This document shows, one piece after another, positions 1-36,920 of a stretch of DNA of 37,329 bases. The notes beneath the pieces were generated by a model. That model did not search any database, was not told the DNA's origin, and saw only the letters and a program-made list of their open reading frames with translations. This DNA is from a virus: IMG/VR virus record IMGVR_UViG_3300049893_000209, positions 1-37,329 of that record, one strand, 5' to 3'. Numbering within the stretch: position 1 is the stretch's first letter; the number at the start of each line of letters is the position of its first letter. A program made the position numbers and the translations under genes.

Positions 1-70
1 GTGTTAGACCGCCGAGGTCTGATAGTGCGGTATTGACCGCCTCCTCTAGTGCTTTGTCGTATAGATTCAC
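1..70 (-). CDS. hypothetical protein, N-terminus only (cut by window edge)
   Basis: A GTG codon at 70-68 begins an open frame of 23 codons that runs off the left edge (MNLYDKALEEAVNTALS...). The start is chosen because a GGAGG-type ribosome site lies just upstream, inside the end of the preceding gene, whose TAA stop is one base away. It is the last visible member of the leftward microgene operon. Nothing about function can be said from this fragment. Confidence 0.5.
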   Translation of the reverse strand, partial: MNLYDKALEEAVNTALSDLGGLT

Positions 71-71
71 T

Positions 72-203
72 TTACTTTCCTCCCTTGATTTCGGTAAAGA
101 TTCTCTCCACCGCGTCGTCTAGTTCTCTCTTTAGTTCATCTACCAATTCAGCAGACCACCCTTCTACCATTTGCTCACTTATTGTTGCACTCCAGATTTT
201 CAT
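72..203 (-). CDS. small acidic hypothetical protein (43 aa)
   Basis: The frame runs from ATG at 203-201 to TAA at 74-72. The protein begins MKIWSATISEQMVEGW and has a helix-prone acidic middle with alternating D/E and K/R (about residues 20-41). Its ATG overlaps the TGA of the preceding membrane-protein gene (ATGA), and AAGG lies just upstream, so translational coupling is likely. I do not recognise a family. Tight packing and a ribosome site are the main evidence that it is real. Confidence 0.6.
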   Translation of the reverse strand: MKIWSATISEQMVEGWSAELVDELKRELDDAVERIFTEIKGGK

Positions 204-352
204 TTGCCCTTCTCCTTTTCTATTCCGTAGCATTTATTTACATTATCCAAGCACCAGTGATCGCCCACCCACCATAGGCGGGTAGATACTAGATAGATAA
301 GCACCGCTAGGGCTATGCCTAGCACGATCTTTCCTCTCCTTGTTAGCTTCAT
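200..352 (-). CDS. small single-pass membrane protein (50 aa)
   Basis: Starting at ATG 352-350, the protein has a basic N-terminus (MKLTRRGK), one strongly hydrophobic segment at about residues 9-28, and a short tail with two Cys residues. The positive-inside rule would place the Cys-containing tail outside the membrane. The frame stays open upstream to an ATG at 448, but that extension reads across the zinc-finger gene at 352-456. The inner ATG has AAAGGA upstream and overlaps the previous stop (TAATG). A phage membrane microprotein of this form could act on envelope functions or superinfection, but no family match is claimed. Confidence 0.65.
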   Translation of the reverse strand: MKLTRRGKIVLGIALAVLIYLVSTRLWWVGDHWCLDNVNKCYGIEKEKGK

Positions 353-456
353 TAGATTATGTCCTTTCCTTCTCTTATACATTGACGGCAGACATAATAA
401 CCGCCGTCGGTTAGTATGTAATCGGCTTCCTCTTGGCATACCCAGCACTCGTTCAT
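352..456 (-). CDS. zinc-binding microprotein (34 aa, two CxxC pairs)
   Basis: This 34-residue protein has CWVC near its N-terminus and CRQC about 19 residues later, the spacing of a small zinc ribbon or knuckle. AGGAGA precedes the ATG at 456-454. The ATG overlaps the stop of the upstream gene (ATGA), and its own TAA overlaps the next ATG (TAATG). Proteins this small that fold around one zinc usually bind a nucleic acid or another protein. The partner is unknown. Confidence 0.6.
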   Translation of the reverse strand: MNECWVCQEEADYILTDGGYYVCRQCIREGKDII

Positions 457-596
457 ACTCTCTCCTTCTCGTTGATTAGTCCTGCCCTGATCTCGTGAAG
501 CGCGTCTAGTAAATACTTTACTTCCGCCCTTTCCTCTCCCGCTTCATAGCCGTCTATTGCTTCCTCGCATAATACGATTATGTCCTCTCTAGTCAC
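453..596 (-). CDS. small acidic hypothetical protein (47 aa, GTG start)
   Basis: The frame runs from GTG 596-594 to TGA 455-453. The protein (MTREDIIVLCEEAIDGYEAG...) is rich in Glu/Asp and Leu/Ile and looks helical throughout. GTG overlaps the preceding TGA (GTGA), with AGAGG upstream as part of the repeated junction module of this operon. No family is recognised. Confidence 0.6.
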   Translation of the reverse strand: MTREDIIVLCEEAIDGYEAGEERAEVKYLLDALHEIRAGLINEKERV

Positions 597-763
597 GCGC
601 TCGCCCTCTCGTTCTCCTTGTAATAATCGGCTAAGACTTTCTCCATAGCCGAGGCGTAGCCCTCTCTTGATTCTGCCGTGAGAGTTTCATTTATAGATTC
701 AAGCTCTAGGCGATACCTTAGAGCTTCATAAGTGATCGCTAGCTCTTGCCTTGTTAGCTTCAC
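593..763 (-). CDS. small helical hypothetical protein (56 aa, GTG start)
   Basis: Translation from GTG 763-761 gives MKLTRQELAITYEALRY..., an amphipathic, charge-rich helical protein that ends ...NERASA. GAGGAAG lies upstream and GTG overlaps the preceding TGA. A longer frame to 883 exists but would read through the gene at 760-900 in another frame, so the inner start is preferred. It could be a small coiled-coil adaptor. Function unknown. Confidence 0.6.
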   Translation of the reverse strand: MKLTRQELAITYEALRYRLELESINETLTAESREGYASAMEKVLADYYKENERASA

Positions 764-900
764 GCGCTCACTTCCTCTCTTACTATTACATCGTCGTAGC
801 CAGAATCTATCCACGCACCAGCTAATCTTTCCGCGTCTTTCCGATTTAGATAGTAGGCGTTTATCTCTACACCGCCCACCCATACGCTAAAGGTATTCAC
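760..900 (-). CDS. small hypothetical protein (46 aa, GTG start)
   Basis: The frame is GTG 900-898 to TGA 762-760. The protein (MNTFSVWVGGVEINAYYLN...) has a predicted beta-hairpin start followed by an Ala/Asp/Glu helix (RKDAERLAGAWIDSG) and a short strand. This strand-helix-strand pattern also occurs in small phage proteins of actinobacteriophages. It uses the shared junction module (AGAGG, then AGCGC, then GTGA) at its start and again at its stop. Confidence 0.6.
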   Translation of the reverse strand: MNTFSVWVGGVEINAYYLNRKDAERLAGAWIDSGYDDVIVREEVSA

Positions 901-1061
901 GCGCTCGCCCCCTCTAGCTTTTTAGCTCCCTCTAGATCGCCATTAGATCGCAGGAAGCTGGCGCAACACTCCACGCAAACGCCATTGTAAAAGGCGAGGA
1001 AAGTAAGCCCGCCCACGCGGTATTTTGCGGGATTCTTTCCGCATTTATCGCATAGCTTCAT
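897..1061 (-). CDS. zinc-finger microprotein (54 aa)
   Basis: From ATG 1061-1059, the protein starts MKLCDKCGKNPAKYRVGG and has a second Cys cluster (CVECC) about 22 residues later, giving a CxxC...CxxC zinc ribbon. A lysine/glutamate tail follows. Its ATG overlaps the TAA of the 101-aa gene, and its stop is fused to the GTG of the next gene. It is one of three zinc microproteins in this leftward block. A nucleic-acid or host-protein target is likely but unproven. Confidence 0.65.
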   Translation of the reverse strand: MKLCDKCGKNPAKYRVGGLTFLAFYNGVCVECCASFLRSNGDLEGAKKLEGASA

Positions 1062-1366
1062 TATTCGCCCGCTTCCGCGTTTAGTATGCTCACGATAAAG
1101 TCGTAAGCGTCTGATCCAATAGTGGCGTATTCTTTTAGCGCGTCGCCTAAGTAATCTAGCTCTAAGTAGCCTAATAGTGGCTCGCTTAGGTTATAGAGTG
1201 GCTCGCCGTATTCCTCCGCCGTGTATCCGATTAGATCAATTAGCAGGGTGAAAGGTGTCCGCCCTGCGGGGTAATTAGTGCTCCAATTATAGAGAGCTAC
1301 GATCTCGGGGAATCTGCTCTCTCCCTGCTCTAGCACCTGCTCTAGTGTTAGCTCTTGTGTATCCAT
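1061..1366 (-). CDS. acidic hypothetical protein (101 aa)
   Basis: This is the longest gene of the leftward cluster (ATG 1366-1364, AAAAGG upstream). The protein is strongly acidic, rich in Glu, Asp, Leu and Tyr, with hardly any Lys and few Arg. The profile resembles DNA-mimic or anti-restriction/inhibitor proteins, but that is only a compositional analogy. An 89-base gap holding a perfect hairpin separates it from the preceding gene. No conserved motif is recognised. Confidence 0.7.
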   Translation of the reverse strand: MDTQELTLEQVLEQGESRFPEIVALYNWSTNYPAGRTPFTLLIDLIGYTAEEYGEPLYNLSEPLLGYLELDYLGDALKEYATIGSDAYDFIVSILNAEAGE

Positions 1367-1417
1367 TACCTTTTACCTTTTCTCTAGTTAGCTACCTCTT
1401 GTTAGGTGAGCTACCTC

Positions 1418-1443
1418 CCGCTAGGGTAGCGATCCCCTAGCGG
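1418..1443. terminator. perfect 9-bp stem-loop in the only gap of the microgene operon
   Basis: CCGCTAGGG (1418-1426) pairs perfectly with CCCTAGCGG (1435-1443) across an 8-base loop. It lies between the stop of the gene at 1456 and the start at 1366. There is no U-tract on either side, so it may be an attenuator, an RNA-processing site or an operator rather than a simple intrinsic terminator. A GAGGTAGCT motif occurs twice just beside it on the minus strand. Confidence 0.45.
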
Positions 1444-1455
1444 AAAGTAAAGCAC

Positions 1456-1644
1456 CTACGCCCACGATCTGCGAAAGATTCCTAACCCTCCCTCTTCCCT
1501 AATCGTCTCCCGCGCTTTCCTTAGCGCGTCTCTTTTGCTATACCATAGGAAAGAGGAGCTACCTAAGTATTCCTCGCCCTGCCACGCTGTTATCTCCCAC
1601 ATACCGCCCCGCCAATAGGCGTTTAGACTTACTCTCTCGCTCAC
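1456..1644 (-). CDS. small hypothetical protein (62 aa, GTG start)
   Basis: GTG 1644-1642 begins MSERVSLNAYWRGGMWEITAW... and the frame ends 11 bases before the hairpin (whose 3' edge is at 1443). The first half has alternating aromatic/hydrophobic residues that suggest a beta-sheet. The second half is a basic helix (SKRDALRKARETIREEGG). This compact beta-alpha layout could bind nucleic acid. The start uses the shared AGAGG...AGCGCGTGA junction. Confidence 0.6.
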   Translation of the reverse strand: MSERVSLNAYWRGGMWEITAWQGEEYLGSSSFLWYSKRDALRKARETIREEGGLGIFRRSWA

Positions 1645-1796
1645 GCGCTTATCCTCTCTCTAGGTGTTAGGTAAATCTCCTGCCGTTTATACTCTCTCAC
1701 TAGGGCGTTTAGGCGGGTATCGCTTAGGGTTGCTACCGCCCACGCTACGCCCTCTTTATCCAATAACTCATACTCTCTCGCGGGTTGCTTAGGCAT
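1641..1796 (-). CDS. small hypothetical protein (51 aa)
   Basis: ATG 1796-1794 overlaps the previous TAA (TAATG). The product (MPKQPAREYELLDKEGVAWA...) is mixed-charge, with a likely helix around TRLNALVREYKRQE, and ends in ISA, as dictated by the shared stop/start 9-mer. No family is recognised. Support comes from operon packing and continuity of the frame. Confidence 0.55.
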   Translation of the reverse strand: MPKQPAREYELLDKEGVAWAVATLSDTRLNALVREYKRQEIYLTPRERISA

Positions 1797-2002
1797 TAGA
1801 TCGCCCTCCCTAAGTGATCGAATCGGTAGCGCATAGGCGCGCCCTCGCAGGGGATAGTCTCGAATCTATTCACGACGCCAGCTATGGGATAAACCAAAAT
1901 CTCACAATTACCATTAGCGAATCTTTCATAGGTGTAATCGTAATAGTGGTAGCCCTCTTGAATCCTGGCGATAGTTTTATCTTTATCGGCAAAACTAGGC
2001 AT
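1796..2002 (-). CDS. small hypothetical protein (68 aa)
   Basis: The start at ATG 2002-2000 is chosen because AGGGGG lies 7 bases upstream and the ATG overlaps the preceding TAA. An in-frame extension to 2047 would cover the zinc-finger gene in another frame. The product (MPSFADKDKTIARIQEGYHYY...) is rich in Tyr and Phe and looks mostly beta, with one Cys in NGNC and one in IPC. Function unknown. Confidence 0.6.
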   Translation of the reverse strand: MPSFADKDKTIARIQEGYHYYDYTYERFANGNCEILVYPIAGVVNRFETIPCEGAPMRYRFDHLGRAI

Positions 2003-2163
2003 TACTTGCCCCCTTGCGCGATATGGGCTAACAGTTGCGCGTCGCACTTAGCGCGAAAGCAACTATCGCATAGGCGATAGGTAGGTGATTCACTATGATA
2101 TCCCTTGCCCTGCCCGCACTTATCACAAGGGCGGATATATGAGGGAGCTTTATATCTCTTCAC
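2002..2163 (-). CDS. zinc-finger microprotein (53 aa, GTG start), first gene of leftward operon
   Basis: GTG 2163-2161 has AAAGGA about six bases upstream. The protein has CDKCG at residues 13-17 and CDSCFRAKC at residues 32-40, a clear four-Cys (plus one) zinc finger with Arg/Lys around it. As the first gene of the leftward block it is placed to be made earliest, perhaps as a DNA-binding regulator. That role is inferred from position and motif only. Confidence 0.65.
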   Translation of the reverse strand: MKRYKAPSYIRPCDKCGQGKGYHSESPTYRLCDSCFRAKCDAQLLAHIAQGGK

Positions 2164-2267
2164 TTTTTATCCTTTCACCGCCAGCTCGATCGTCTAGCGA
2201 TAGGCGCACGATAACATAATTCATAGGTGCGTCTCCCCTAGTTATGCTTAGAGCTTGATTACGATTA

Positions 2268-2310
2268 GATAACAAAGTTATCCACAGGCTAGCGGGTAAT
2301 CTGTGGATAA
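2268..2310. promoter_or_regulatory. inverted pair of consensus DnaA boxes
   Basis: TTATCCACAG at 2278-2287 and CTGTGGATAA at 2301-2310 form a perfect 10-base inverted repeat with a 13-base spacer. Each arm contains the bacterial DnaA box TTATCCACA. A second dyad, GATAAC (2268-2273) / GTTATC (2277-2282), overlaps the left arm. Host DnaA could bind here to start phage replication or to control the flanking divergent operons. Confidence 0.7.
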
Positions 2311-2620
2311 GTTAGAGCTGAGATCGGCGGGCGCAATAAATCGGCGGGAGATAGCTAGGTGCTAAGAGCTATCCAATAGCGGGCGCGATTATTGTTTAGG
2401 GCGAATCGGGAGACTATTAGAATCGGGGGAGAATCTGCCGTGGTGGCTATCGCCCCGCTCATCTACCCTCACCGATTCCAATATCCACGCAACCTCTAGG
2501 GATACGGGAAGCACCACGCCCGAATAGGGTGACCCCAGGTTGCTAAATGCGAGGGCGAGGGTAGTGATAGTCCCCAACAAAATATTTCGACTAACTCACT
2601 ACTGTCCTATATGTCCGATT

Positions 2621-2629
2621 TGATATACT
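2621..2629 (+). promoter_or_regulatory. putative extended -10 promoter
   Basis: TGATATACT matches an extended -10 element (TGN followed by TATACT) in an AT-rich stretch upstream of the terminase operon. No good -35 hexamer is visible 17 bases upstream. The same TATACTAT core, also preceded by TG-N, occurs at 30150-30160 in the other control region. Confidence 0.35.
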
Positions 2630-2717
2630 ATATCTGTGACGTTGGTAACAAAAACAAAGATTTTTTCTGTAAAAACGGGAAATGGCTTATTTTTTCTGCC
2701 TTAGTACAGTATAGGGA

Positions 2718-2870
2718 GCAAATGCGAGCGCCCCTTAGCATTTGCGACCAGAGGCGCCTATGGCGCCTACAGTGGGCGCTTTAAGCGCCCCTAGTTATAG
2801 TAACCGACTTACCCCTCGGCTCCTGTGGTCGCCTCGGGCGCTCAAGCCCGAGTGTGGTGGTTCCCACCAC
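2718..2870. other. run of five stem-loops upstream of the terminase gene
   Basis: Perfect stems follow one another: GCAAATGC/GCATTTGC (2718-2745, 12-base loop), AGGCGCC/GGCGCCT (2752-2768, 3-base loop), GGGCGCTT/AAGCGCCC (2774-2790, 1-base centre), CTCGGGC/GCCCGAG (2833-2852) and GTGGTGG/CCACCAC (2854-2870, loop TTC). They could form a structured leader RNA, a packaging recognition site or a terminator array. None has a U-tract. Confidence 0.6.
2817..2842 (+). repeat. dispersed control-region repeat, copy 1
   Basis: CGGCTCC, CTGTGGTC and GTCGCCTCGG followed by CGCT occur here in the same order as at 30201-30233. The two copies differ by small insertions of 3-4 bases. A nearby 9-mer GGCGCCTAC (2762-2770) also recurs at 30269-30277. 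Confidence 0.6.
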
Positions 2871-2923: not shown

Positions 2924-4822
2924 ATGAATAAAAAAGGATTACGCCCCTTGCCACAAAACTTAAAAAACATTGAACGGGCTGATAAGGCTAAACAGATTAT
3001 CCTCCAGCTCGTTGCCCAAGGGGAGACTATTGAGGAAGCCTGCAAGGCTGCAGGCAAATCAGTTAAGACCTATGAGTATTACCGCCGATCAGATCCTTCC
3101 TTCAAGAACTTACTCGACAGAACTAGGCTAGGGTCTCTAGAGAAGAATTTTACGGAAGCCTCAGCTAGGGACTTAGACTTTGTCACCTGGCGAAAGAAGT
3201 ATCTCCACCAGGAGACCTTCGGTCATCAGAAGAATCTGATAGATGTAATCGAAGGACGCGACCCGTCCTGGTTCCATCCGTCGATGAAGTTTGAACGCGG
3301 CTTGGCTGAAAACCGCATCCTTCTAAACATCCCACCTAACCACGCAAAGTCCATCACGGTAACCGTTGACTATGTCACCTACAAGATTGTTAATAACCCG
3401 AACTTTAGAGTTCTGATAGTTTCTCAAACTCAGCGCCTCGCTGCAGACTTTCTTTACGCTATCAAGCAACGTCTGACTCACCCGATGTATGAAGAACTCC
3501 AGCAGGCCTATGCTGCAGGTATCGGGTTTAATACCAAGACCGCTTCCTGGCAACAGACCAGAGTCACCTTCGGTGAGGAACTACGCGAGTCTAGTGAGAA
3601 GGACCCGAACCTAGAGGCTGTAGGTATTGGTGGTCAGATTTACGGTAAGCGTGCAGATATGATTATCATAGATGACGCAGTTACGCTGTCTAACGCCAAT
3701 GACTTTGAAAAGCAGATTAAGTGGCTACAGCAGGACGTTAGGTCCCGTCTTAACCCTACCGGTAAACTTATTGTAGTAGGAACCCGAGTAGCCTCAGTAG
3801 ATTTATATAAAGAACTTCGTAACCCCGATAGATACCCAGGCGGCGTTGTCCCTTGGACATATCTAGCAATGCCAGCACTTCTCGAAACCCACGAAGATCC
3901 AGAAAAGTGGGTTACACTCTGGCCCTACTCAGACCAACCGTTCGATGGGCAGACAGATGAGCATAAGACTGAAGAAGGTTTATACCCCCGCTGGAATGGA
4001 AAGCACCTTTTCGCGGAGCGACAAGCGATGGATGCGTCCACTTGGGCGCTTATCTATCAGCAGCAAGATATTTCAGATGACGCCATCTTTGACCCGATTT
4101 GCGTTAAAGGCAGCATTGACGGAATGCGGAAGGCGGGTCGCTTATCTCCAGGATTTCCTGGACATCCTCGTGACCTCAATGGCTTTAGCTTTATCTGTGG
4201 CCTCGATCCTGCAATGGTCGGTGACACTGCCGCTATCTGTTATGCTATTGATCGCGTTAGCCATAAGAGATATATCGTGGATGCTATCAAGATTACGCGT
4301 CCGACACCTGCTCAGATTAGACAACTTATCACTGACTGGACTAACGTCTATGCCCCGTCTGAATGGATAGTTGAGCGAAACGCTTTCCAGTCCTTCTTGA
4401 CGCAAGATGAAGGCATTAGAAACTTCCTAGCATCTAAAGGTACAGTTCTTAGAGAACACCATACCGGTAATAACAAATGGGATGCAGGTTTCGGTGTGGC
4501 TTCTATGTCCACATTGTTTGGAACTAAACAGCAAGATGGAAAGCATCATAGAGATAATTTGATTCATCTTCCATCAGACCAGACAGAAAATATCAAGAGT
4601 CTTATCGAGCAACTTATCACTTGGTCTCCAACGACCAAAGGTAAGACCGATATGGTTATGGCACTTTGGTTCTGTGAAATCAGAGCAAGAGAAATGCTAA
4701 ACGTAGGACTCAATCAGAAGACCCATATGAGAAATCCGTTCTTGAATCATAATGAGAGACGGCGACAAATCGTAGTAAACATCGACGAATTACTGCAAGA
4801 CAAAGAGAGGCAGTTCATCTAA
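2924..4822 (+). CDS. terL: terminase large subunit (packaging ATPase/nuclease)
   Basis: This is the DNA-packaging motor. It pumps phage DNA into the prohead through the portal using ATP and cuts concatemers with a C-terminal RNase H-like nuclease. An N-terminal helix-turn-helix-like segment (about residues 24-60) resembles DNA-binding small-terminase domains. The ATPase follows, with a Walker A-like PPNHAKS at about 136-143, which lacks the usual Gly before Lys, and Walker B MIIIDDAV at about 246-253. The nuclease domain starts near 422 (GLDP) with a later acidic GKTDMV near 573. At 632 residues the length is normal to long. ATG 2924 is the first possible start after an in-frame stop at 2909. 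It has no ribosome site and instead follows a pyrimidine run. No separate small terminase gene is visible nearby. Confidence 0.93.
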   Translation: MNKKGLRPLPQNLKNIERADKAKQIILQLVAQGETIEEACKAAGKSVKTYEYYRRSDPSFKNLLDRTRLGSLEKNFTEASARDLDFVTWRKKYLHQETFGHQKNLIDVIEGRDPSWFHPSMKFERGLAENRILLNIPPNHAKSITVTVDYVTYKIVNNPNFRVLIVSQTQRLAADFLYAIKQRLTHPMYEELQQAYAAGIGFNTKTASWQQTRVTFGEELRESSEKDPNLEAVGIGGQIYGKRADMIIIDDAVTLSNANDFEKQIKWLQQDVRSRLNPTGKLIVVGTRVASVDLYKELRNPDRYPGGVVPWTYLAMPALLETHEDPEKWVTLWPYSDQPFDGQTDEHKTEEGLYPRWNGKHLFAERQAMDASTWALIYQQQDISDDAIFDPICVKGSIDGMRKAGRLSPGFPGHPRDLNGFSFICGLDPAMVGDTAAICYAIDRVSHKRYIVDAIKITRPTPAQIRQLITDWTNVYAPSEWIVERNAFQSFLTQDEGIRNFLASKGTVLREHHTGNNKWDAGFGVASMSTLFGTKQQDGKHHRDNLIHLPSDQTENIKSLIEQLITWSPTTKGKTDMVMALWFCEIRAREMLNVGLNQKTHMRNPFLNHNERRRQIVVNIDELLQDKERQFI

Positions 4823-30930: not shown

Positions 30931-31124
30931 GAAAAGACTTCAAGCGATTGTCGGTTACGACAAGTCGCAGTTATGTCTATAACTGGTCCTTGGGTCTTGA
31001 CTATTACGAAGAATGTGGAGATACTCCCGATGATGTCATTGCAAAGATTTGTCAGATAGGTCTGTTATTCTTTAGAATAACGATAGTCTATTGGAATACA
31101 GGAGAGTACTTCCCGAATGATTGA
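30927..31124 (+). CDS. small hypothetical protein (65 aa, GTG start)
   Basis: GTG 30927 overlaps the preceding TGA (GTGA) with GGGAG upstream. The product (MRKDFKRLSVTTSRSYVYNW...) has a basic N-terminus, a central acidic DYYEECGDTPDD and a hydrophobic C-terminal third. No family is recognised. Position between a protease and a nuclease gene gives no clear clue. Confidence 0.6.
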   Translation: MRKDFKRLSVTTSRSYVYNWSLGLDYYEECGDTPDDVIAKICQIGLLFFRITIVYWNTGEYFPND

Positions 31125-32064
31125 TATAAAAGAATTGCTAGTTAAAGCTCTGCACGACGTTGAGAACAAACGTAGCAGAAGCACACAGGTACAGATTGGC
31201 CCATCAGAATTAGGTGGCTGCCGTCGTAAGGTTTGGTATCGATTGAACAACCAACCTGAAACCAATGACAATGAACTCAAGCTCGCAGCGATTATGGGCA
31301 CCGCTATTCACGGTGCTATTGAGAATGCTCTATCGAGCAACAAGGATGTGTCACTTGAGCAGACCGTTGAACACAACGGGATGAAGGCTCACGTAGATTG
31401 CTTCATTCCATCTATTGGCGCTGTCGTAGATTGGAAGACAGTAAAGGCTAAGAACCTATCTTACTTTCCTAGCCAGCAGCAACGCTGGCAGGTACAGGTG
31501 TATGGATATTTGATTGATAAGTCTGGATTGGGGAAGGTTCAGACTGTCAGTTTAGTAGCCATACCTCGTGATGGTGATGAGAGGGATGTACTTGTACATA
31601 CCGAAGACTATGACGAGTCCATTGCGCTAGAGGCGCTCAACTGGTTAGAAGCGATAAAGTTATCGGACACGGCTCCTGATCCTGAAAGGGACGAGAGCTA
31701 TTGTAAATTTTATTGCAAATACTATGACGCCTCTGGCGAGATGGGATGCGTTGGTCTAAAAAAAGGACTTACAAAAACTGAATTACCAGTGATAGAAGAT
31801 TCTGAAGCGGATAAATCTGCTTTGGAGTATCTGCAACTGGATGCCAAGATAAAGGAGTTATCCGAACGAAAGGACGCTCTTAGGGATGGGCTTACTGGAT
31901 TACTCGGTATCACCAAGTCTGGCATCCAAGTTCAGACATCTGCAGTGAAAGGTTCTTTCATTGTGGATAAGGATGAAGTCAAGGAAAAACTTGGCTATCT
32001 TCCTGGCAAAGAAGGAAAAGAAACAATCAGAGTAACAGTCAAACAAACTGGAGGAAACAAATAA
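31117..32064 (+). CDS. Cas4/RecB-like PD-(D/E)XK exonuclease with Fe-S cysteines (315 aa)
   Basis: This is a DNA-processing nuclease. The sequence shows an N-terminal GPSELGGCRRKVWY (Cys35), a nuclease core with HVDCFIP (Asp near 93) and VVDWKTVK (Asp and Lys near 104-106), QRWQVQVYGYL as the QxxxY motif near 122-130, and three C-terminal Cys (YCKFYCKYY...MGC, about 196-211). One N-terminal and three C-terminal Cys are the 4Fe-4S layout of Cas4 and AddB-type nucleases. Residues 240-275 look coiled-coil. AGGAGAG precedes the ATG. A role in recombination or degrading host DNA is likely. Confidence 0.85.
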   Translation: MIDIKELLVKALHDVENKRSRSTQVQIGPSELGGCRRKVWYRLNNQPETNDNELKLAAIMGTAIHGAIENALSSNKDVSLEQTVEHNGMKAHVDCFIPSIGAVVDWKTVKAKNLSYFPSQQQRWQVQVYGYLIDKSGLGKVQTVSLVAIPRDGDERDVLVHTEDYDESIALEALNWLEAIKLSDTAPDPERDESYCKFYCKYYDASGEMGCVGLKKGLTKTELPVIEDSEADKSALEYLQLDAKIKELSERKDALRDGLTGLLGITKSGIQVQTSAVKGSFIVDKDEVKEKLGYLPGKEGKETIRVTVKQTGGNK

Positions 32065-32430: not shown

Positions 32431-32700
32431 ATGCGTGAGCCACGTCAATACGAGGCTCCGCTATGTGCGCAGGTCGACGGAGATCTCTGGTTCCCAGAGA
32501 AGCAGAGAGGTAATCCAAGAGGATTACGTTTGGCAAAAGAACTATGTTCTTTATGTACCCATAGACTTGAATGCGCTGAATGGGGTATTACCTATGAACG
32601 GCACGGAATTTGGGGTGGACTCACCGCTGCCGAAAGAAAGAAAATCCGCGGTAAAAGAAAACTAAAAATACCAATAGAGAAACGAGAGGACTGTGCTTAG
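32431..32700 (+). CDS. WhiB-family Fe-S transcriptional regulator (89 aa)
   Basis: The WhiB domain is complete: Cys12, Cys39, Cys42 and Cys48 (C-x26-C-x2-C-x5-C) and the GIWGGLT turn, followed by a Lys/Arg-rich tail (RKKIRGKRKLKIPIEKR) for DNA contact. WhiB proteins bind a 4Fe-4S cluster and associate with the main sigma factor of Actinobacteria. Phage versions can repress host whiB genes or reprogramme host transcription. It starts 4 bases after the previous stop and overlaps the ATPase start by 8 bases. Confidence 0.92.
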   Translation: MREPRQYEAPLCAQVDGDLWFPEKQRGNPRGLRLAKELCSLCTHRLECAEWGITYERHGIWGGLTAAERKKIRGKRKLKIPIEKREDCA

Positions 32701-33523
32701 ACTAGATAGAGCTTGGCATAGTTCGCACAGTAACGCTGAACCTTTACCTTTGGTCTGGAAAGATCTAAAGAGTAAGGACATAACTTTCCGGCGCGGTCAA
32801 GTGTGTATGGTTGCCGCTGCACCTAACGTCGGAAAGTCTATGTTTGCTTTGATATATGCAATCAAGGCACAGGTTCCAACTCTTTTCTTTTCTGCTGATA
32901 CTGATACAGCTACTGTAATGATTAGAGCGGCATCGCATTTATCAGGTCATACACAGATAACTGTTGAAAATAACATCAGGACAAACCCATCTCACTATGC
33001 AAAAGACTTAGAGATGATGGGCCATATCCAATGGGTCTTTGATTCAAGTCCATCACTTGATGACATTGAAGCAGAGGTCAAGGCTTACATAGAACTCTTC
33101 GGTATAGCACCGAAGTTAATAGTGATAGATAACCTGATGAATGTAGTTGCCGAGACTGATAATGAATGGGCAGGACTTCGAGCAATTATGGTAGAACTAC
33201 ACGATATGGCTAGGAAAACCGAAGCCTGTGTGATGGTGCTACACCACGTATCAGAGCAGACTGAATATGGAACTACCTTTGAACCACCAGCACGTAGAGC
33301 AATCCACGGAAAGGTGAGTCAGTTACCAGCTTTGATACTAACTCTTGGGTATGATCCGTATGGACATACACTACGAGTGGCTGCAGTCAAGAACAGATTT
33401 GGCAGACATACTGCTGACGGAAAGGATTACATAGGTTTGTTTACAAACTATTCGGCTTGTCAGATAGGAGACTCTGACGCTTATGGTCGAATGATATTGA
33501 ACTCAAATCCAAGGAATGTATGA
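32693..33523 (+). CDS. RecA/DnaB-like ATPase, probable replicative helicase or loader (276 aa, GTG start)
   Basis: The sequence RRGQVCMVAAAPNVGKSMFAL holds a Walker A (PNVGKS, about 43-49), LIVIDNLMNVV is Walker B (about 141-151), and CVMVLHHVSEQ plus KVSQLPALILTL match the later strand motifs of DnaB/RadA-type cores. No separate N-terminal helicase domain is present, so it may act as a compact helicase or recombination ATPase. GTG 32693 lies inside the end of whiB. It ends in an ATGA overlap with the resolvase gene. Confidence 0.8.
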   Translation: MLRLDRAWHSSHSNAEPLPLVWKDLKSKDITFRRGQVCMVAAAPNVGKSMFALIYAIKAQVPTLFFSADTDTATVMIRAASHLSGHTQITVENNIRTNPSHYAKDLEMMGHIQWVFDSSPSLDDIEAEVKAYIELFGIAPKLIVIDNLMNVVAETDNEWAGLRAIMVELHDMARKTEACVMVLHHVSEQTEYGTTFEPPARRAIHGKVSQLPALILTLGYDPYGHTLRVAAVKNRFGRHTADGKDYIGLFTNYSACQIGDSDAYGRMILNSNPRNV

Positions 33524-36136: not shown

Positions 36137-36291
36137 CTCACACTGAACTACTTACTAAGACTGATGGAGCCTTACTTGAAATCGTCAAGTTACACACACC
36201 TGAAGGCAACATCACTCCTCAGCAGTGTAGACACGATAAAAAGTTTTACCCCTGTCCAACCATTCAGATTATTGAGAAAGAACTTCAATGA
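36133..36291 (+). CDS. small hypothetical protein (52 aa)
   Basis: ATGA overlaps at both ends (36133 and 36288). The protein begins MTHTELLTKTDGALLEIVKL and ends CRHDKKFYPCPTIQIIEKELQ, with two Cys and one His that resemble the CxxC...YPCPT pattern of small actinophage proteins. It could hold a metal, but only two Cys are present. Function unknown. Confidence 0.65.
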   Translation: MTHTELLTKTDGALLEIVKLHTPEGNITPQQCRHDKKFYPCPTIQIIEKELQ

Positions 36292-36920
36292 CTGAACTAC
36301 ATCCAACCCTTACTGAGATAGCACCAGGCGTAGCAACTGCCATCTATCGCAGGTATAGAGGTTATGTAGAGAAGGAAGATGTACTTCAAGAGTGTTATCT
36401 CTGGGCTACTTCTAGGAATGCTTCACTTCAAGATCAACTCAATGAAGAGAATGCGCTTAGAAGGATGGCTAATGAAAGGCGTATAGCCTGGCAGATGAAG
36501 CGCCACGCTGAACGCTATGCTCGTAAAGAGAAGGCTAATAAAGCTGGCTATAAGACTGCCGATGAAGCCTTCTATGACACTACTACTATCGCTCAACTAC
36601 TACCCTTTGTCATAAAGTCTGTTGCTTTAGATACTGCACTAGAGCAGAGCCAAGTCTTACTCAATGATGGCCAACCACGCAAGCAGTCTGCTCCTGCTGA
36701 AGGTGGCAACCTACTAGCTACCCTCGTTGATATAAAGAAGGCTTATCAGAAGTTAGAGAAGGAAGATCAAGAGATTCTTAGCCTTCGCTATTATGAGAAT
36801 GTAACGCTTCAGCATATAGCTGAATATCTAGAGTGTGCTGTATCTACTGCCGATAGAAGAGTCAATAATTCTCTTCGCAAACTACAGAATAATATCGGTG
36901 GAGAGAGTCCCTGGCAGTGA
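36288..36920 (+). CDS. phage RNA polymerase sigma factor (sigma-70/ECF type, 210 aa)
   Basis: Region 2-like YRRYRGYVEKEDVLQECYLWA (about 21-41) and a clear region 4 with LEKEDQEILSLRYYENVTLQ, then HIAEYLECAVSTADRRVNNSLRKLQ (about 155-200), an HTH for -35 recognition. The connecting segment is charged and flexible. Such phage sigma factors redirect host RNA polymerase to phage promoters, plausibly those with TGN-TATACT cores seen here. ATG overlaps the previous TGA and its end overlaps the next GTG. Confidence 0.85.
   Translation: MTELHPTLTEIAPGVATAIYRRYRGYVEKEDVLQECYLWATSRNASLQDQLNEENALRRMANERRIAWQMKRHAERYARKEKANKAGYKTADEAFYDTTTIAQLLPFVIKSVALDTALEQSQVLLNDGQPRKQSAPAEGGNLLATLVDIKKAYQKLEKEDQEILSLRYYENVTLQHIAEYLECAVSTADRRVNNSLRKLQNNIGGESPWQ

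Follow-up and report, generated by a model that had tools for sequence, protein, structure and literature searches.

The window, by which we mean the whole stretch of viral DNA analyzed (37,329 nt), is a fragment of the record of a virus of bacteria and carries 14 very small genes on the minus strand near its start. This microgene array begins near position 2224, runs divergently from the gene for the large terminase and leaves the window at position 1 (Table 1). Searches of the array proteins against PHROGs and Pfam gave only weak matches or matches of unknown function, and a scan for relatives of g9 found none. The products of g11, g7 and g2 are tiny zinc-ribbon-like proteins with cysteine pairs; the Pfam matches of g11 and g2 lay below cut-off.

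Table 1. Genes of the microgene array, copies of the repeated 9-mer and other features of the window
Feature	Position	Strand	Remark
g14	1..70	-	start only, runs past window edge; same DNA (97%) in L007
g13, microgene	72..203	-	ORF with Shine-Dalgarno site; ATGA overlap with g12
g12, microgene	200..352	-	small hydrophobic-segment protein; homologues in many relatives, neighbours differ
g11, microgene	352..456	-	cysteine pairs
g10, microgene	453..596	-	L041 and L045 have homologues, which follow other junctions
g9, microgene	593..763	-	no relative found
g8, microgene	760..900	-	weak phrog_2832 match; about a dozen arrays have homologues
g7, microgene	897..1061	-	cysteine pairs
g6	1061..1366	-	phrog_33275, unknown function
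g5, microgene	1456..1644	-	
g4, microgene	1641..1796	-	
g3, microgene	1796..2002	-	order relative to g2 swapped in L067
g2, microgene	2002..2163	-	cysteine pairs; order relative to g3 swapped in L067
g1	2150..2224	-	first called gene of the array
AGCGCGTGA, g9|g10 stop/start overlap	593..601	-	
AGCGCGTGA, g8|g9 stop/start overlap	760..768	-	
AGCGCGTGA, g7|g8 stop/start overlap	897..905	-	
AGCGCGTGA, g4|g5 stop/start overlap	1641..1649	-	
Pair of DnaA-box-like 9-mers	2277..2310		inverted orientation
Non-coding block	about 2530..2720		between terminase and array
Large terminase	2924..4822		
Cas4/PD-(D/E)XK-like nuclease	31117..32064		predicted
DnaB-like helicase	32693..33523		
Protein with sigma-70 region 4	36288..36920		possible sigma factor

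Several other features of the window were recorded alongside the array. Two perfect DnaA-box-like 9-mers, TTATCCACA and TGTGGATAA, lie just before it in inverted orientation; among the terminase-proximal regions of relatives, at least one such 9-mer was present in 16 of 61 and an inverted pair in 5 of 61. The DNA of the non-coding block between terminase and array is common to most relatives, unlike that of the array genes, and the block is possibly a promoter, terminator or replication region. Near the DnaB-like helicase gene lies a gene for a Cas4/PD-(D/E)XK-like nuclease, a candidate for phage recombination, and the protein with sigma-70 region 4 is a possible phage-coded sigma factor.

The initial annotation had described an exact 9-bp element at four gene junctions, each with overlapping TGA and GTG and an AGAGG site upstream, and had considered the genes between the copies to be unrelated; all of this was confirmed. 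The 9-mer, AGCGCGTGA, occurs exactly four times in the window, always on the minus strand and always at a junction, and is found nowhere else on either strand. The expected count was 0.22, and none of 100 shuffles reached four. At every copy the upstream frame closes AGC GCG TGA (Ser-Ala-stop) while the overlapping GTGA opens the next gene, and AGAGG precedes all four, with 8, 10, 10 and 8 nt from its last G to the GTG. AGAGG itself is an ordinary Shine-Dalgarno (SD) site; the array has it 15 times on the minus strand and once on the opposite strand. The array proteins are mutually unrelated, with one family per gene and a best pair at E = 0.02 over 6 residues, and the idea that the genes are duplicates of one another was ruled out by this lack of similarity. 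All four of the 4-nt GTGA overlaps in the window carry the same spelling, and the remaining overlapping junctions of the array are ATGA (g10|g11 and g12|g13) or TAATG. Four of the nine bases, GTGA, are imposed by the overlap; the surprising remainder is the identical pentamer AGCGC, for which array codon usage gives a chance of about 0.3% per junction.

Related arrays were collected by a terminase search of viral contigs, which gave 80 loci with 79-95% terminase identity, and by using two conserved array proteins as queries, which gave 143 further loci. Removal of duplicates left 142 arrays with 2,023 called genes and 1,881 adjacent pairs. The nearest named phages by terminase (43-46% identical) were an unannotated Caudovirales sp. 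and Streptomyces phages, and a search of bacterial and archaeal genomes for terminase homologues, made for host assignment, found none. Adjacent genes overlapped by exactly 4, 1 or 8 nt in 68% of the 1,881 pairs, a share that may be somewhat inflated by the gene caller, a custom script favouring 4- and 1-nt overlaps; a gap of 0-20 nt was present in only about 8%. The same kind of caller recovered the genes of the window exactly, and the homology-break and chimera results given below are independent of the share of 4- and 1-nt overlaps. At the GTGA junctions the SD site lies at about -14 to -8, that is, within the upstream gene. The 8-nt overlap, spelled ATGCCTAA or ATGTCTAA, recurred in related arrays (338 of 1,881 pairs; L021, L033 and L063 are examples). 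Its stop falls within codon 3 of the following gene, so that many downstream proteins begin MPK or MSK.

Comparison of these arrays revealed fast-changing gene content. Even L006, a 93%-identical relative, had no blastn-detectable array DNA in common with the window, the sole tie between the two arrays being a distant g12 homologue. The same families were met behind many distinct upstream neighbours, and where homologues of the window's genes occurred in relatives their flanking junction sequences differed. The expectation that gene order would change between relatives was amply borne out: in L067 the g2-g3 pair stands as g3-g2, with the breaks at TAATG overlaps, and in L007 the DNA shared with g14 (97% identical) starts within 2 nt of the start codon, behind a different gene. 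When homology blocks were taken at >=90% identity, 31% of left and 34% of right block ends fell <=4 nt from a start codon, compared with 4.5-4.6% of random positions in the same arrays. Gene gains and losses, meaning genes found in one array but missing from between the same neighbours in another, were resolved further at 56 gene-free junctions that were clean chimeras of both flanking junctions, these having been looked for only in the start-codon register. The crossover interval spanned the start codon in 39 of the 56, and some crossovers fell inside the SD site. In L063 compared with L050, for example, a tail ending in gagggagaaggc is joined to GTGATATTTCTA, and in L025 compared with L290 the crossover lies within the SD site. 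As the SD site belongs to the upstream gene, most joins leave the ribosome site with that gene and the downstream gene acquires a new one. The earlier proposal of a cassette-like system thus stands insofar as whole genes are exchanged at stop/start overlaps with the overlap form kept; identical boundaries were neither needed nor kept.

We also examined how far sequence identity at the boundaries accompanied exchange. In 19.6% of 336 events, compared with 11.6% after permutation, the junctions on either side of a gained or lost gene had an uninterrupted stretch of >=9 nt in common; the events were inferred from family order rather than from a phylogeny and thinned by family pairs, and are possibly not fully independent. 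A same-genome, type-matched control agreed (difference 0.43 nt, P = 0.012), and for recent events the proportions sharing >=9 nt were 30% and 18%. At resolved crossovers the shared run averaged 5.16 nt (median 5) compared with 3.8 nt for a null of random flanks matched for overlap and start codon (P = 2e-5), and runs of >=8 nt were found in 24% compared with 9% under the null. Single gain or loss cases shared as many as 14-20 nt. When the same gene stood behind unrelated genes, the preceding pentamer was shared in 4.0% of pairs compared with 3.1% for matched random junctions (P = 0.07). A general excess of upstream similarity for such genes was considered and set aside, since the pentamer showed none, although the 12-nt identity was slightly raised (0.472 versus 0.450). 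The idea of exchange by short homology therefore survives in that short shared sequence is modestly but significantly in excess, with a median of 5 nt and not 9. Short homology is favoured, at a typical length well below nine, and most events need little beyond the start/stop overlap; short homology may help a minority of exchanges.

Selection alone does not predict the likeness of flanking junctions or crossover runs above the null, and these two results weigh against the account favoured below. A further reading is that phage-coded recombination, perhaps involving the predicted Cas4-like nuclease, uses 5-20 nt of identity across SD site and overlap to join microgenes in register, and that repeated joints such as the four copies of AGCGCGTGA raise exchangeability, making the array a real gene-cassette system. 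We give this reading a small but appreciable chance of being correct. The proposal that identical boundaries like AGCGCGTGA are kept for exchange between repeats of 9-14 nt appears unlikely. It draws on the same excess of shared sequence, on the longest single cases and on the fact that g8 and g9 are each bounded by the 9-mer on both sides, but none of the g8 homologues, known from about a dozen arrays, has it on its flanks, and L067 shows another form, AGCGCATAATG, at the orthologous g4|g5 junction. The median crossover run is also short of nine, pentamer identity is not in excess for a gene found behind unrelated genes, and relatives without repeated identical junctions exchange genes equally actively. 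A single case in its favour is a block of L055 that lies between two copies of GAGCGCGTGA and is missing in L017, though the L017 junction matches neither copy.

The spelling of the junctions was then compared across the family. Among 244 GTGA junctions in the 142 arrays, the most common preceding pentamers were AGCAA (42), GAAGC (23), AGAGC (16) and GAAGG (16), with GGCAA (14), AGCGC (13) and AACAA (13) further down. The phage group has favoured spacer-plus-overlap spellings, which include AGCAAGTGA, GAAGCGTGA, GGCAAGTGA and AGCGCGTGA as well as others. More than two junction copies of AGCGCGTGA were present in the window alone, other arrays having two at most. Given the spacer vocabulary of the family as a whole, four identical copies would turn up in some array with a chance of about 5%. 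Homogenization of junctions within individual genomes was tried as an explanation and rejected: a first, smaller set gave P = 0.001 with the signal coming from the window alone, and in the larger set pentamers were no more alike within than between arrays (P = 0.16, or 0.71 without the window). The 9-mer was likewise rejected as a widespread viral module; AGAGG-N{2,6}-AGCGCGTGA occurred in at least 119 viral stretches, and the matches listed were scattered over many contigs with a single copy in each.

These data also bear on two further explanations. A regulatory element, acting in translation control or as a protein-binding site in the manner of the start-associated sequences (SAS) of cluster K mycobacteriophages, would be in keeping with copies that lie at gene starts in one orientation, adjoin the ribosome-binding site and serve unrelated genes, as SAS does (PMC3203893). 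We regard it as very improbable, since there are only four copies, no other array has more than two at junctions, the viral scan gave one copy per stretch among the matches listed, and the part conserved beyond GTGA amounts to five bases drawn from several equally placed pentamers. Descent of the four junctions from one ancestral junction by duplication or gene conversion within the genome, which would fit the 14 nt (GGGCGAGCGCGTGA) common to the tails of g7 and g9 at the g7|g8 and g9|g10 copies, is highly unlikely in view of flanking genes that are unrelated on both sides, sequence that differs outside the SD-spacer-overlap, and other arrays that lack within-genome homogenization. On the sequence comparisons, AGCGCGTGA is best read as one common overlap spelling, repeated here with some chance involved, and not as a dedicated exchange site. 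Chance spelling has its own difficulty, in that AGCGC makes up 3.75% in relatives and four draws out of four are rare; four of four AGCGC in particular stays unusual, and a residual genome-specific cause may contribute.

The account that we favour, with a probability of about 0.75, is that the region is an accessory array that changes fast and consists of translationally coupled microgenes exchanged at their overlaps, the 9-mer being one favoured spelling of such an overlap. The last ~15 bases of each gene encode its C-terminus and at the same time provide the SD site and overlapping start of the next gene. A gene that is joined in register, whether at the start codon or inside the SD site, would use the ribosome site of the resident tail, and joins of the kind seen in the chimeras would preserve operon coupling. 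The arrays compared show gain, loss and reordering of whole genes at these joints, through very short shared sequence, in most cases the start/stop overlap and at times the SD site. Illegitimate or microhomology-assisted recombination is the probable source of the joins, which would then be filtered by selection for coupling; the coupling itself would operate by termination-reinitiation, with selection against joins that break it. Since the downstream gene lacks its own ribosome site, joining in register would be an economical means of preserving coupling. The design is simple, in that any gene may follow any other because each tail holds the ribosome site of the next.

The 9-mer is in itself of small importance. 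The arrays are of wider use for an old question, namely whether mosaicism reflects targeting of short boundary sequences or illegitimate joins made blindly and then sifted by selection. About 1,900 tight junctions, together with dozens of gain and loss events whose crossovers are located to a few bases, allow the two models to be compared numerically, and the outcome was that extended homology is absent at most joins, yet microhomology exceeds chance.

Several known systems resemble parts of this picture. The SAS of cluster K mycobacteriophages is a 13-bp sequence with 11-19 copies per genome, located upstream of start codons and conserved among relatives (PMC3203893). Like the 9-mer, it is a short one-orientation repeat beside the ribosome-binding site and start codon of unrelated, mostly non-structural genes. 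The window differs in having four copies of a 9-mer that spans the start and includes the stop, with pentamers that vary in relatives and no conservation at the same genes in related phages. Termination-reinitiation coupling is described at ATGA/TGATG overlaps, and overlapping genes have been studied in E. coli and Haloferax volcanii (PMC6728339). The arrays have the same overlapping stop and start with an SD site in the upstream gene, and coupling would follow the same route; they differ in the frequent use of GTGA and of 8-nt overlaps and in having entire operons constructed in this way.

Exchange of phage modules at conserved boundary sequences, or linkers, is described in PMC3233612 and PMC3029335. 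The arrays share with that model short common sequence at the junctions where exchange occurs and crossover homology above chance, but the lengths are mostly below 9 nt and the shared part is mainly the start/stop overlap plus SD site. Relatives do not conserve the window's 9-mer at the corresponding boundaries, and exchanged genes did not keep the same boundary, as seen from the pentamer comparison and the g8 homologues. Another parallel is the event involving Island3 gene 68 and Brujita, in which the gene ends concerned were similar over about 50 bp (PMC3029335); there too a small gene is gained or lost through similar gene tails at a junction, whereas the shared tails in our arrays are mostly 3-11 nt. 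Phage mosaicism with module limits at gene boundaries, for which models are summarized in PMC3233612 and PMC3029335, is a further comparison. Similarity in the arrays breaks at gene boundaries, the same genes have different neighbours in related genomes and most joins lack a long conserved boundary sequence. Unlike mosaicism as described there, what moves is one microgene out of a tightly overlapping array, joins lie no more than a few bases from the start codon and microhomology is measurably, if slightly, in excess. The arrays fit mainly illegitimate joins with selection, to which microhomology makes a measurable contribution. Our finding is known phage mosaicism at fine resolution, with microhomology at ribosome-binding-site and overlap joints combined with selection for coupling.
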